Of a stretch of 64,000 nt of DNA, positions 5,881 to 8,753 are shown one piece after another (the first letter of the stretch is position 1; the number at the start of each line of letters is the position of its first letter). The notes beneath the pieces were generated by a model. That model was given only the letters and a program-made list of their open reading frames with translations, ran no database searches and was not told where the DNA came from. The position numbers were made by a program, and so were the translations under genes. The stretch covers positions 124,001-188,000 of the forward strand of contig NZNC01000019.1 of assembly GCA_002692965.1 (NCBI GenBank), written 5' to 3'. Source of the DNA: Haliea sp. GTDB lineage: Bacteria; Pseudomonadota; Gammaproteobacteria; Pseudomonadales; Halieaceae.

Positions 5881-5957
5881 CTCCGCTTTTGCTATCACCC
5901 TATCACCCGCGCGCAGGCACGGGTGGCGGGGTGCTTTGGACGTTGGGCCGGCCCGTC

Positions 5958-7319
5958 ATGCTGAGTGTCAAGGAAACCCGCGAGCTGTTCCGCCTGGCCC
6001 TGCCCATGGTAGTGTCCCAGAGTGCCTTCGCCCTGATGGTATTCACCGACCGCCTGTTCATGGCGCAGATCGACGCCCTGCACATTGCCGCGGCCCTGGG
6101 TGGTGGGGTGACCTTCTTCGTGACAGTCGCTCTTTTTATCGGCGTCATGTCCTACGCCACGGCCCTGGTTGCGCAGTACCAGGGTGCCGGCCAGCTGGCC
6201 AAGTGCCCGCGGGTTCTCACCCAGGGCATCATCATGGCGGCTGCCTGCCAGCCCCTGTTGTGGTTGCTGGGCTGGTTCACGGGCGACCTGTTTGCGCTGA
6301 TGGGACACCCGCCGGAACAGGTGCAGCTGGAGCGCGACTACTATTACGTGATGCTCGCCGGTGCCTTCTTCGGGCTGAGCAAGGCCTGCGTGGCGGGCTA
6401 CTTCTGTGGCATCTCCCGCACGCGGGTGGTGATGATTGCCGATGTGCTCGGGGTGATGGTCAACGTTCCTCTGACCTGGGCCCTGGTATTCGGGCACTTT
6501 GGCTTGCCGGAACTGGGTATCCGCGGGGCGGCCCTGGGGACAGTGATTGCGACCGCTTTTACCCTCTGCGTGTACGCCGTCTTCTATTTCAACCGCGTGC
6601 ATCGCGAGCGTTTCCAGGTGTTGCGCTCCTTCCATCTCGACCTCGCCATCCTGCGGCGCTACGTGCGCCTGGGCCTGCCCTCCGGCTTTGAAACCTTCGT
6701 CGGCGCGGCGACCTTCAACTTCTTCCTGCTGCTGTTCCAGTCCTACGGCGTCGCCGAAGGTGCCGCGATGGCCATCGTCTTCAACTGGGACATGCTCAAT
6801 TACGTGCCCCTGATCGGCCTGAATATCGCGGTCACCAGCATGATTGGCAACGCCGTGGGGGCCCGGGACATGACCCGTACCAACCAGGTGATCGCCGCCG
6901 GCTTTGCCATCGCCCTGGGTTACTCCGCGGTGCTGGCCGTGGTCTTCGTGATCTTTCGCGTGCCCTTCATGGAGGTCTTCAGCACCCCGGAAGAGGACTT
7001 CAGCGTGATCGTGGAGATCGGTGCCCGCATGATGATCGGCATGGCCACCTACGTGCTGGCGGACGCCGTCATCCTGGTCAGCAGCGGCGTCCTGCGCGGC
7101 GCCGGCGACACCCGCTGGCTGATGAACACCAGCATGAGCCTGCACGTGCTGATGCTGGCGACCCAGTGGGTGATGATCAAGGTACTGGACTACCCGCCGC
7201 TGGTGAGCTGGTGGGGCTTCGTGGCGATGCTGCTGGCCCTGGCGGTGATCTACCTCCTGCGCCTGCTCGGCCACCGCTGGCGCCACCCCGACCGCCTGGC
7301 GCGGGTCATGGCGGAGTAG
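5958..7319 (+). CDS. MATE family Na+- or H+-driven multidrug/toxin exporter
   Basis: Inner-membrane antiporter that expels organic cations or other toxic compounds. The 453 residues are the usual MATE length and hydropathy suggests about 12 membrane segments. The start MLSVKETRELFRLALPMVVS is typical: a short amphipathic helix, then the first segment with its conserved Pro. The second half repeats the pattern (RRYVRLGLPSGFETFVGAATF, then MLNYVPLIGLNIAVTSMIGNAVGARD). I preferred the ATG at 5958 over an upstream TTG because it gives the family-typical N-terminus, although no strong ribosome site is seen. The gene stands alone; substrate is unknown. Confidence 0.9.
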   Translation: MLSVKETRELFRLALPMVVSQSAFALMVFTDRLFMAQIDALHIAAALGGGVTFFVTVALFIGVMSYATALVAQYQGAGQLAKCPRVLTQGIIMAAACQPLLWLLGWFTGDLFALMGHPPEQVQLERDYYYVMLAGAFFGLSKACVAGYFCGISRTRVVMIADVLGVMVNVPLTWALVFGHFGLPELGIRGAALGTVIATAFTLCVYAVFYFNRVHRERFQVLRSFHLDLAILRRYVRLGLPSGFETFVGAATFNFFLLLFQSYGVAEGAAMAIVFNWDMLNYVPLIGLNIAVTSMIGNAVGARDMTRTNQVIAAGFAIALGYSAVLAVVFVIFRVPFMEVFSTPEEDFSVIVEIGARMMIGMATYVLADAVILVSSGVLRGAGDTRWLMNTSMSLHVLMLATQWVMIKVLDYPPLVSWWGFVAMLLALAVIYLLRLLGHRWRHPDRLARVMAE

Positions 7320-7420
7320 CTCCGCCTCGTCCACACATGCCAGCGTGTCTCCCGTGAGTCGAGTTCTGCATCTGGGGCATGTCACTTGTCTGGGTCGCTT
7401 GGGTGCATTCTGCGGGACCG

Positions 7421-7531
7421 CCGTGCCTTCGCAAGCGGGGCTATGGGGACACGCAGTGAATACGTCCCTGTAGCTCGACGGCGACATCCCTGTCGCCGAC
7501 GGCCCCCATAGCCCCGCTTGCGAAGGCACGG
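7421..7531 (-). repeat. Palindromic element A with 28-bp perfect outer inverted repeat
   Basis: Outer arms at 7421-7448 and 7504-7531 are perfect 28-bp inverted copies (left arm begins CCGTGCCTTCGC). Between them lies an inner hairpin CGGCGACA/TGTCGCCG (7479-7486 with 7491-7498, loop TCCC) and, on the minus strand at 7476-7446, a core starting GAGCTACAGGGACGTATT and ending GCGTGTCCC. The same core occurs in element B with different arms. This order, outer arm, inner hairpin, core, outer arm, marks it as one member of a repeat family rather than a chance palindrome. Confidence 0.8.
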
Positions 7532-7654
7532 CTCCGAGGTAGTCTGAGAGAGCACGCGCTGTCCGAGAGTACTTGGCCGCATAGGAGAATCGCAGCTCAC
7601 AGCCTTCCCCAGAGCGAAGCCAACAGGCGTTCAGTCAACCCCGGAGCATCGGGG

Positions 7655-7751
7655 CGCGGTCAGGGCCTGTTTGGGACCTTCGGCCGCATGGATGCGGCCG
7701 AAGAGCTACAGGGACGTATTTCCCGCGTGTCCCAAACAGGCCCTGACCGCG
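7655..7751 (+). repeat. Palindromic element B with 23-bp perfect outer inverted repeat
   Basis: Outer arms at 7655-7677 and 7729-7751 are perfect 23-bp inverted copies (left arm begins CGCGGTCAGGGCC). An inner hairpin, CTTCGGCCGCAT/ATGCGGCCGAAG (7678-7689 with 7692-7703, two-base centre), leads straight into the core at 7703-7733, which begins GAGCTACAGGGACGTATT and ends GCGTGTCCC, as in element A. The two elements have opposite orientation, 123 bp apart. Arms and inner hairpins differ in sequence between the copies while the architecture is kept. Confidence 0.8.
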
Positions 7752-7871
7752 ACACGCTGCGGACCCTCTGGTGGGACGCATATTCGTCAGGGCCAGAATT
7801 CGACTTGTGGGTGTGGGCGTGGTGCATGCCGGAACTGGCGGACTCTCTGGAGTTGGAGGCGCGCGCAGCCG

Positions 7872-8753
7872 CTACAGCGTCAGGATGCGCCGCAGCAGGC
7901 TGTCCTCGCTGCGGTGCTGCTCCCGGTAGAGCAGCAACTCCCGCAGTTGGCCGTCAATGCGCCCGGCGATATCGTCCCGCAGCTTCTCCAATTGCCGCGG
8001 CGTCGGGGTGCGGCCGGCGAAACGGGACAGATCGAGGGGCTCGGCGAAGCCGATAAAGCAGCGCTTGGGCTTCGGCAGGGGGCTGCCCAGGGCGCCCAGG
8101 GGAACCGGGGGCAGGATATCCCGCCGGGTATCGGGCGTGAGGATGCCGAGTTGCCGGAGCAGGCGGCCCGGGGGTGAGTCGGGCAGATCGGCGCTGCTGA
8201 TCAGCTGGTCGTAGAACTCGTCGGGGCCGACCATGCCGAAGGGCTGGATGGTGTAGCCCTGGCGGGCGGCCAGGCGCAGGAAGCCGAAGCGCTCGCGCCA
8301 CTGCAGCCGGTAGCGCTGGCTGGCGGGCTTGACCGCCTCGTGGGCGCCGCCGGGAAAAACCAGCAGGTCTTCGCCGGCCTCCATCAGCGCCCGGCAGACC
8401 TCGGGGTGTCCGATGATCGCACCGCGGCTGAGCAGGGCCCGTTCGGTCAAGGGATAGTGGAACAGGAAACGGTCCCCGAGGGCGCGCAGGAAGCGCTGCT
8501 GCTCCAGCTGCATCACGGTGGCCACGATGACCGCGTCGAGGGCAAACAGGCTGTGGTTGCCGACGAACAGGCAGGGCCCCTCGGACAGCCGCTCGAGTCC
8601 GCTGAGCTGCGGCCGGAATACCCGCTGCACCAGCTGCTGACGGGCGAACGTTTCCAGGTCCCGGGGCGGGCTGACCTGCAGGGCCTGTTCGATGTGCCGT
8701 TGCAGGCCCGGGTCGGGTGCCTTCGGCGCTGCCGCTCGTCTGTCGGCCGCCAC
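7872..8753 (-). CDS. Lysophospholipid/MGAT-like acyltransferase
   Basis: Membrane-associated acyltransferase of 293 residues, probably moving an acyl chain onto a glycerolipid or another lipid alcohol. The catalytic block is VGNHSLFALD, with His67 and Asp73. The His-x5-Asp spacing (not His-x4-Asp as in PlsC) and the later FPGGAHEA block match the monoacylglycerol acyltransferase/TMEM68-like branch. The start is a GTG at 8753, 3 bases after the ptsP stop, so the gene is almost certainly translated together with ptsP. Downstream lies only the repeat region. The acceptor substrate is unknown. Confidence 0.8.
   Translation of the reverse strand: MAADRRAAAPKAPDPGLQRHIEQALQVSPPRDLETFARQQLVQRVFRPQLSGLERLSEGPCLFVGNHSLFALDAVIVATVMQLEQQRFLRALGDRFLFHYPLTERALLSRGAIIGHPEVCRALMEAGEDLLVFPGGAHEAVKPASQRYRLQWRERFGFLRLAARQGYTIQPFGMVGPDEFYDQLISSADLPDSPPGRLLRQLGILTPDTRRDILPPVPLGALGSPLPKPKRCFIGFAEPLDLSRFAGRTPTPRQLEKLRDDIAGRIDGQLRELLLYREQHRSEDSLLRRILTL

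Follow-up and report, generated by a model that had tools for sequence, protein, structure and literature searches.

A dispersed two-hairpin repeat of Haliea sp. and its relatives, with a freely varying but paired long stem, resembles TwoAYGGAY RNAs and is predicted to bind CsrA

Introduction

The closest described relative of the repeat reported here is TwoAYGGAY (RF01731, clan CL00106, Csr-Rsm). It was tabled as a candidate RNA in 2010, from the human gut, gamma-Proteobacteria and Clostridiales (PMC2864571), it was predicted to bind CsrA from its two loop motifs, with an external stem that is poorly conserved (PMC4333381), and a passage of a later paper terms it relatively unexplored (PMC11661157). 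The sponge RNAs CsrB/CsrC and RsmX/Y/Z capture CsrA/RsmA through the GGA of their hairpin loops (sections on these RNAs in PMC7652899 and PMC4333381), with about 18 CsrA subunits per CsrB RNA (PMC7652899). In the part of the same source that deals with the binding site, SELEX gave RUACARGGAUGU, mostly with a six-base loop and with AC/GU paired, most of the ligands having stems of four pairs or fewer; the site of RsmE is an ANGGAN hexaloop, and two sites can be bridged at 10-63 nt, with an optimum above 18 nt (PMC7652899).

We have analyzed a window of 64,000 nucleotides from Haliea sp. (contig NZNC01000019.1, positions 124,001 to 188,000) in which two palindromes are located between a MATE-family gene (5889-7319, plus strand; PF01554) and an acyltransferase gene (7872-8753, minus strand; PF01553) that are convergent. 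Each copy is probably a dispersed structured RNA repeat of the TwoAYGGAY type, predicted to bind CsrA. This kind of RNA is known; what appears new is the form, dispersed in high copy number, frequently in pairs and with an outer stem near 30 bp, of which we found no description in the literature searched, most subscription journals lying outside the scope of that search. A search of literature text with the letters of the core gave no paper on a bacterial repeat by title, and the portions available of a paper on stem-loop families (PMC2267715) and of another on Alcanivorax small RNAs (PMC9788540) do not describe the repeat.

Results

The two elements of the window

The initial annotation of this stretch had recognized two palindromes with a common core, and this was confirmed: perfect arms were located in both, and GAGCTACAGGGACGTATT and GCGTGTCCC are present in elements 1 and 2 at equal spacing (Table 1). 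As to the arm lengths that it gave, the 23 bp were right and the 28 bp were one short, the first arm being of 29 bp. Read on its own strand, each element consists of an outer stem, hairpin 1, a link AGC, hairpin 2, a conserved 3' strand and the second arm. The arms and the hairpin-1 stems differ between the two elements, while the loop pattern and the junction are alike. Since the common core sits on opposite strands, the elements are mutually inverted, and the stretches 7446-7506 and 7673-7733 are 80% complementary across 61 nt. In element 2 there are 19 nt from the GGA of hairpin 1 (7690-7692) to that of hairpin 2 (7712-7714), and a GC in the 3' junction strand pairs with the GC preceding hairpin 2 in a proposed lower helix. 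Both outer stems extend to 31-32 bp when a few mismatches are tolerated.

Perfect 20-bp inverted repeats not more than 130 nt apart gave 14 sliding matches in the window, precisely the count expected from one arm pair of 29 bp (10) plus one of 23 bp (4). When the window was shuffled base by base (n=20), 19 of the shuffles had no such repeat and one had two.

Table 1. Coordinates of the paired elements and of their parts, in positions of the window
Feature	Position	Strand	Description	Evidence
Element 1, whole	7420-7532	minus	outer stem 7420-7448/7504-7532, perfect, 29 bp, enclosing two hairpins	93.6 bits with covariance model R1 (match G000:C21:131431-131521)
Element 1, hairpin 1	7476-7501	minus	loop AGGGAT, complement of 7486-7491	sequence, alignment
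Element 1, hairpin 2	7461-7472	minus	TAC-AGGGAC-GTA	sequence, alignment, covariation; absent from minimum-energy fold
Spacer between the 5' sides of elements 1 and 2	7533-7654	none	122 bp	
Element 2, whole	7655-7751	plus	outer stem 7655-7677/7729-7751, perfect, 23 bp; 7646-7760 allowing few mismatches (arms 7646-7677/7729-7760, 32 nt, 91% complementary)	99.5 bits with covariance model R1 (match G000:C21:131658-131748)
Element 2, hairpin 1	7678-7703	plus	loop ATGGAT 7688-7693; inner perfect hairpin 7678-7689/7692-7703	sequence, alignment
Element 2, hairpin 2	7707-7718	plus	TAC-AGGGAC-GTA; GGA 7712-7714	sequence, alignment, covariation; absent from minimum-energy fold
Conserved 3' junction strand	7719-7728	plus	TTTCCCGCGT in element 2; TTCAC.GCGT in many family copies	

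A repeat family that often forms facing pairs

The initial annotation had made its reading depend on finding further copies of the core, and these are present both in the genome and in its relatives. Allowing up to two mismatches, we counted 24 matches of the core pattern and two of the reversed pattern in the 3.80-Mb genome, and the outer stems of the 24 copies are 23-33 bp long, with few mismatches and with a different sequence in each. We built a covariance model (R1) from 22 of the 24, omitting two that carry a long insert in hairpin 1. The model found 35 strong copies in the genome (E <= 2.1e-10) and a doubtful one (E 0.05). As many as 30 of the 35 make up 15 neighboring facing pairs, every one of them with the minus-strand copy first. 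G032, a genome that belongs to the same family as the own one and is assembled in a single contig, has 119 copies by R1 (E <= 0.001), and 17 neighboring pairs were found there at 600 bp or less, against about 1.8 expected; 13 were minus-plus, four plus-minus and none on the same strand. The element is about 112 nt long and the spread of stem lengths is narrow, with 28-32 bp in 201 of the 261 elements found by a script.

The outer arms differ among the copies of the own genome, so that terminal inverted repeats common to the copies were not found there, and a classical MITE is improbable on these grounds. In some other genomes the arms are common within subfamilies: there are arm subfamilies in G032, and the copies of Luteimonas weifangensis have near-identical arms. 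These cases show that copies have spread together with their arms.

Copies were detected in 32 of 58 genomes (the own genome and its relatives), in 66 of 369 sampled from the class and in 28 of 398 sampled from the phylum, all of these 28 being the own genome or members of the same order or class. Because only the best candidates of each genome were scored (150 for the own genome and G032, 74 for the 58 genomes, 11 for the class and 10 for the phylum), all these copy numbers and frequencies are minimum values. The exact core pattern was found in at least 118 stretches of named genomes. Among the matches listed were Marinobacter, Luteimonas, Sedimenticola, Microbulbifer, Halospina, Marinobacterium, Thalassolituus and Vulcaniibacterium, as well as several bins from metagenomes, one carrying the label Propionibacteriaceae. 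A 70-base core query had no match in plasmid and phage records at E 1e-5. Several Marinobacter genomes have a run of copies in common at matching spacings. At family depth the site of the window is not conserved: none of 29 acyltransferase loci had a copy, these loci being the 29 best among the 93 other genomes that gave a match, taken irrespective of the MATE neighbor.

A common fold held by covariation

The copies have a common fold in which an outer stem of about 30 bp, with a sequence unique to the copy, closes two hairpins with A-N-G-G-A-N loops. In the 22 own copies 97.0% of the cells are paired, compared to 67.7% in shuffles, both sides have changed at 29 of the 33 pairs, and sliding the partners by a single column lowers the pairing to 35-40%. 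In the relatives (105 matches, 101 distinct rows, 70 loci) the values were 95.6% versus 60.1% in shuffles, with changes on both sides at all 33 pairs, in an alignment that is biased towards the structure, having been fitted to a model trained on the own copies. The arms covary, therefore, in own copies and relatives alike, and their differing sequences back the earlier statement that pairing is conserved while sequence is free.

The inner hairpins are less uniform. One of the ten hairpin-1 pairs is unpaired in 71 of the 101 rows. Below the three upper pairs of hairpin 2 a lower helix, outside the model, is suggested by the alignment, with G-C at the first position in 98 of 101 rows, C-G at the second in 92 and, at the third, C-G in 60, G·A in 19, G-C in five and T-A in four. 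Mutual information across 137 elements indicates the same third pair. When folded for minimum energy, the two window copies form the outer stem and hairpin 1, with the loop of the latter closed to four bases, and a different small hairpin in place of hairpin 2, so that the evidence for hairpin 2 is the covariation of its three upper pairs.

One locus common to five Marinobacter genomes divides them into two groups (L109 3037 and L124 3291 versus L161 1747, L159 5988 and L146 5608): from one group to the other both arms have changed as a block, while flanks and core are similar. An automatic comparison of 199 element pairs returned 283 'double' changes that are unusable, copies of the same genome and one-base register shifts being mixed in.

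Wobble pairs point to selection on one strand

A one-sided change of a Watson-Crick pair yields G·T or A·C equally easily unless the fold of one strand is selected, and counting the two on the element strand is a simple means of telling whether a palindrome is selected on one strand, like an RNA, or is just symmetric as DNA. In the outer stems of the 261 script-found elements we counted 256 G·T or T·G, 19 A·C or C·A and 127 other mismatches. With the 210 elements distinct in their arms the numbers were 219, 18 and 122 respectively. All five groups were asymmetric (G·T:A·C of 20:3, 32:1, 29:0, 82:12 and 56:2), and the inner 20 pairs of the model alignment, which overlaps the set of 210 in part, had 35 G·T and nine A·C. 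The binomial probability of 4e-45 overstates the independence of the counts because copies of the same genome are related and were deduplicated by exact arm only. This excess indicates selection for pairing on one strand, as would occur in RNA, and favors an RNA of the element strand as its object, a single-stranded DNA hairpin of that strand being also compatible with it. Together with the covariation it supports the structured RNA that had been among the first interpretations of the palindromes. Arms copied as templated DNA had also been considered, on 22 own copies in which the inner 20 pairs alone gave five G·U versus nine non-standard cells, and this idea was overturned by the whole-stem G·T excess of the larger set.

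When divided by context, the G·T:A·C counts were 65:1 for copies antisense to both neighbors, 45:4 for sense, 62:7 for convergent and 8:1 for divergent. Antisense copies are thus equally asymmetric, and at most a part of the RNA can come from read-through of neighboring genes. Enrichment of a -10-like motif upstream was not found, TANNNT being present in 16 of 210 5' flanks versus 36 of 210 on the reverse strand.

The loops resemble CsrA/RsmA sites

The script used for the wobble counts demands CANGGANG in both hairpins, so the set that it found is uninformative on the conservation of the loops, for which we used the model alignment, where no loop pattern was required. There, the loop of hairpin 2 reads A-N-G-G-A in all 105 rows, over surrounding stem pairs that vary. 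Its N is G in 50, T in 48, C in four and A in three, and its sixth base is mixed. The closing pair is C-G in 99 of 101 distinct rows and the commonest form of the hairpin is TACA-N-GGA-N-GTA. The loop of hairpin 1 deviates more often: apart from gaps, the first base was other than A in seven of the 105 rows, the second G was A in ten and the last base of GGA was other than A in nine, and some of these cases may be alignment shifts. Two or more ANGGA were found in 98 of the 105 rows and one in the other seven, and in 90 of the 98 the two GGA are 20-21 nt apart.

Hairpin 2 has, therefore, what the consulted part of PMC7652899 describes for a CsrA/RsmA site, an ANGGAN hexaloop on a short stem, the stem being deduced here from covariation, and the distance between the loops falls in the range that a CsrA/RsmA dimer can bridge. 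The stem of hairpin 1, with ten pairs, is long and unlike that of most SELEX ligands in the same source. A CsrA gene was identified in 54 of the 58 genomes, the own one included. Among those that lacked a match, one has 15 copies of the repeat (G024, 93% complete, in about 310 contigs) and another a single copy (G009, 66% complete).

Comparison with TwoAYGGAY and other RNAs

A search of the window against Rfam gave nothing above the cut-offs. The order of parts is that of TwoAYGGAY, i.e., an outer stem and two hairpins with terminal loops of AYGGAY type. This link and the two A-N-GGA-N loops, the feature that tells most about the element, had been missed by the initial annotation, whose reading as a whole has been supported in part. 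When 55 loci were scanned (E limits of 1, 0.1 and 0.3), seven of them yielded a total of eight copies that match the TwoAYGGAY model over its full length, with scores of 34.3-38.5 bits. The best score (38.5 bits, L240) and all the others were below the gathering cut-off of 43, the window copies had no match at E <= 10 and the 20 loci scanned at E <= 0.3 had none. The differences are several. Bases 2 and 6 of the loop are not restricted to Y here (base 2 of the hairpin-2 loop is G or A in 53 of 105 rows and base 6 may be G or A, so that only a part has strict AYGGAY), the outer stem is near-perfect and mostly of 28-32 bp, hairpin 2 is extended by lower GC pairs and by a 3' strand that is conserved, and the copies are dispersed, with up to 119 per genome.

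The likeness to CsrB/CsrC and RsmX/Y/Z is in the GGA hairpin loops. Unlike CsrB, each locus offers two candidate sites and the number would come from many loci. Neither a T-run terminator nor an enriched -10 motif was found for the copies. The Yersinia small RNA Ysr224 (RF02770) matches stretches of many copies at 22.6-38 bits, far under its cut-off of 70, for instance at 7403-7505 of the window and in L313, L259, L329 and others. In the cases compared with model matches it lies on the strand complementary to the selected one, and may thus correspond to the antisense strand of a related element.

Discussion

A predicted CsrA-binding repeat and its rivals

The family, its fold and covariation, the strand asymmetry, the conservation of the loops and their spacing have been demonstrated at the level of sequence, and the following model is built on them. 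The stem of about 30 bp, in which the sequence is free to vary and the pairing is kept, would present a junction with two short A-N-GGA-N hexaloop hairpins, and may protect the RNA or hold the loops open. As the two GGA triplets are about 20 nt apart, one CsrA/RsmA dimer could clamp both. If the copies are transcribed, a CsrA dimer would bind both loops of an element, many copies together could titrate CsrA, and/or transcripts that carry a copy might come under CsrA-dependent control or have their 3' ends protected. We consider this reading, a TwoAYGGAY-type repeat that binds CsrA, the probable one.

The strongest rival is a hairpin of single-stranded DNA recognized by a mobility enzyme (REP/RAYT-like or another nuclease), for which the core and the foot of the stem would be the recognition site. 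Like REP/REPIN, the copies are short intergenic palindromes, numerous and often in inverted pairs. REP elements carry a GTAG/GGAG head, and in the own genome the 5' foot is often GGAG (7), TGAG (6) or GTAG (5) among 28. Copies are dispersed and multiply along with their arms, as the subfamilies of G032 and the near-identical arms of L. weifangensis illustrate. The G·T excess by itself would fit a single-stranded DNA fold of the same strand, and G·T is milder than A·C in DNA as well. On the other hand, the length of about 112 nt, arms mostly unshared in the own genome and two conserved inner hairpins set the family apart from REP/REPIN with RAYT (Y1), and recognition of DNA alone would not predict two A-N-GGA-N loops on stems that change. 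The enzyme itself shows no clear association. A Y1 match (PF01797) is found in 17 of 21 genomes chosen for their copies, versus 31 of the 58 relatives overall, but in 19 of 32 copy-bearing versus 12 of 26 copy-free genomes, some matches being fragments. There is none in the own genome despite its 35 copies, none in the L. weifangensis genome (G508) where the copies are very alike, and only one of 37 Y1 loci fetched had a copy within about 1.5 kb. Co-occurrence with Y1, for which the initial annotation had proposed to look, is seen in the genomes selected for copies, while the own genome has no match and the 58 genomes show no association. The REP-type transposase site initially suggested finds no support, and a REP/RAYT site is unlikely. 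For the single-stranded DNA hairpin in its broader form we would also give a low probability.

Still less probable, in our view, is an element of 3' ends, in which the long stem would halt 3'-to-5' exonucleases or, together with Rho, terminate transcription from both sides, the pairs serving convergent genes such as the MATE and acyltransferase genes of the window. Copies were found in 47 of 79 convergent gaps, 15 of 66 divergent and 93 of 218 codirectional ones, in loci that were chosen for their copies and with genes called by a simple ORF and GC-position method. The orientation counts leave out 34 elements that were placed 'inside' an ORF and 20 at the edges of loci. Convergent gaps are not favored everywhere: in the loci of named genomes 10 elements are convergent, 64 codirectional and seven divergent. 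The preference of convergent over divergent gaps may reflect promoter regions that do not tolerate copies. Besides, orientation is independent of the neighbors (31 sense and 34 antisense among elements for which no partner was found, in codirectional gaps), and the conserved loops are left unexplained. No run of five T was present within 25 nt of the stem in any of the 210 elements. The same count gives no support to an intrinsic terminator; a termination site had been among the early suggestions.

Lastly, the palindrome could be neutral, its arms being matched to each other by template switching (quasi-palindrome correction) or by exchange between copies and not by selection on pairing. This could account for the block change of both arms in the five Marinobacter genomes, but is very improbable, as template switching should not favor G·T over A·C on one strand (219 versus 18) and conservation of the core and of the loops extends over many families of the class.

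Coming back to the CsrA-binding repeat, at two candidate sites per copy there would be up to 70 in the own genome and about 238 in G032, raising the possibility that CsrA activity is partly set by the repeat load. A wider proposal, which we put forward tentatively and hold possible rather than likely, is that a mobile or once-mobile RNA repeat has spread docking sites for CsrA, so that the Csr system would be buffered by a distributed intergenic set and not by one sponge RNA, and each insertion could put a neighboring transcript under CsrA. If this were true, the asymmetry of the antisense copies would imply that RNA is produced by the element itself or that it spreads via an RNA stage. The dispersed relative of TwoAYGGAY, present in many families of the class, supplies a dual CsrA-type site in hundreds of naturally occurring variants.

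Variant and mosaic copies

Several arrangements depart from the simple pair. In L. weifangensis (L091, L103, L111 and other loci) the hairpin is embedded in a longer mosaic intergenic repeat, with about 200 bp 5' of the hairpin common to the copies and partly recurring in tandem, and with decayed 3' halves of the element downstream in several loci. Five same-strand tandem copies with a period of about 227 bp were found at G688:C1:94424-95426, and three closely spaced copies at G487:C4:2387439-2387800. The spacer of the pair on C19 contains a decayed third core, reversed, in the 5' flank of the plus copy (L021), and in the 3' flank of L029 the right arm and its own flank are repeated downstream. 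L006 and L009 have a similar inserted arm (GAGAGCCCACCCCGCTTT...) in hairpin 1, and the model matches of G032, 104-141 bp long, suggest longer hairpin-1 variants there too. At the foot of the stem the bases are nonrandom in the own genome: GGAG (7), TGAG (6) and GTAG (5) make up 18 of 28 on the 5' side, and CGGA or CGGG is found in 16 of 28 on the 3' side.
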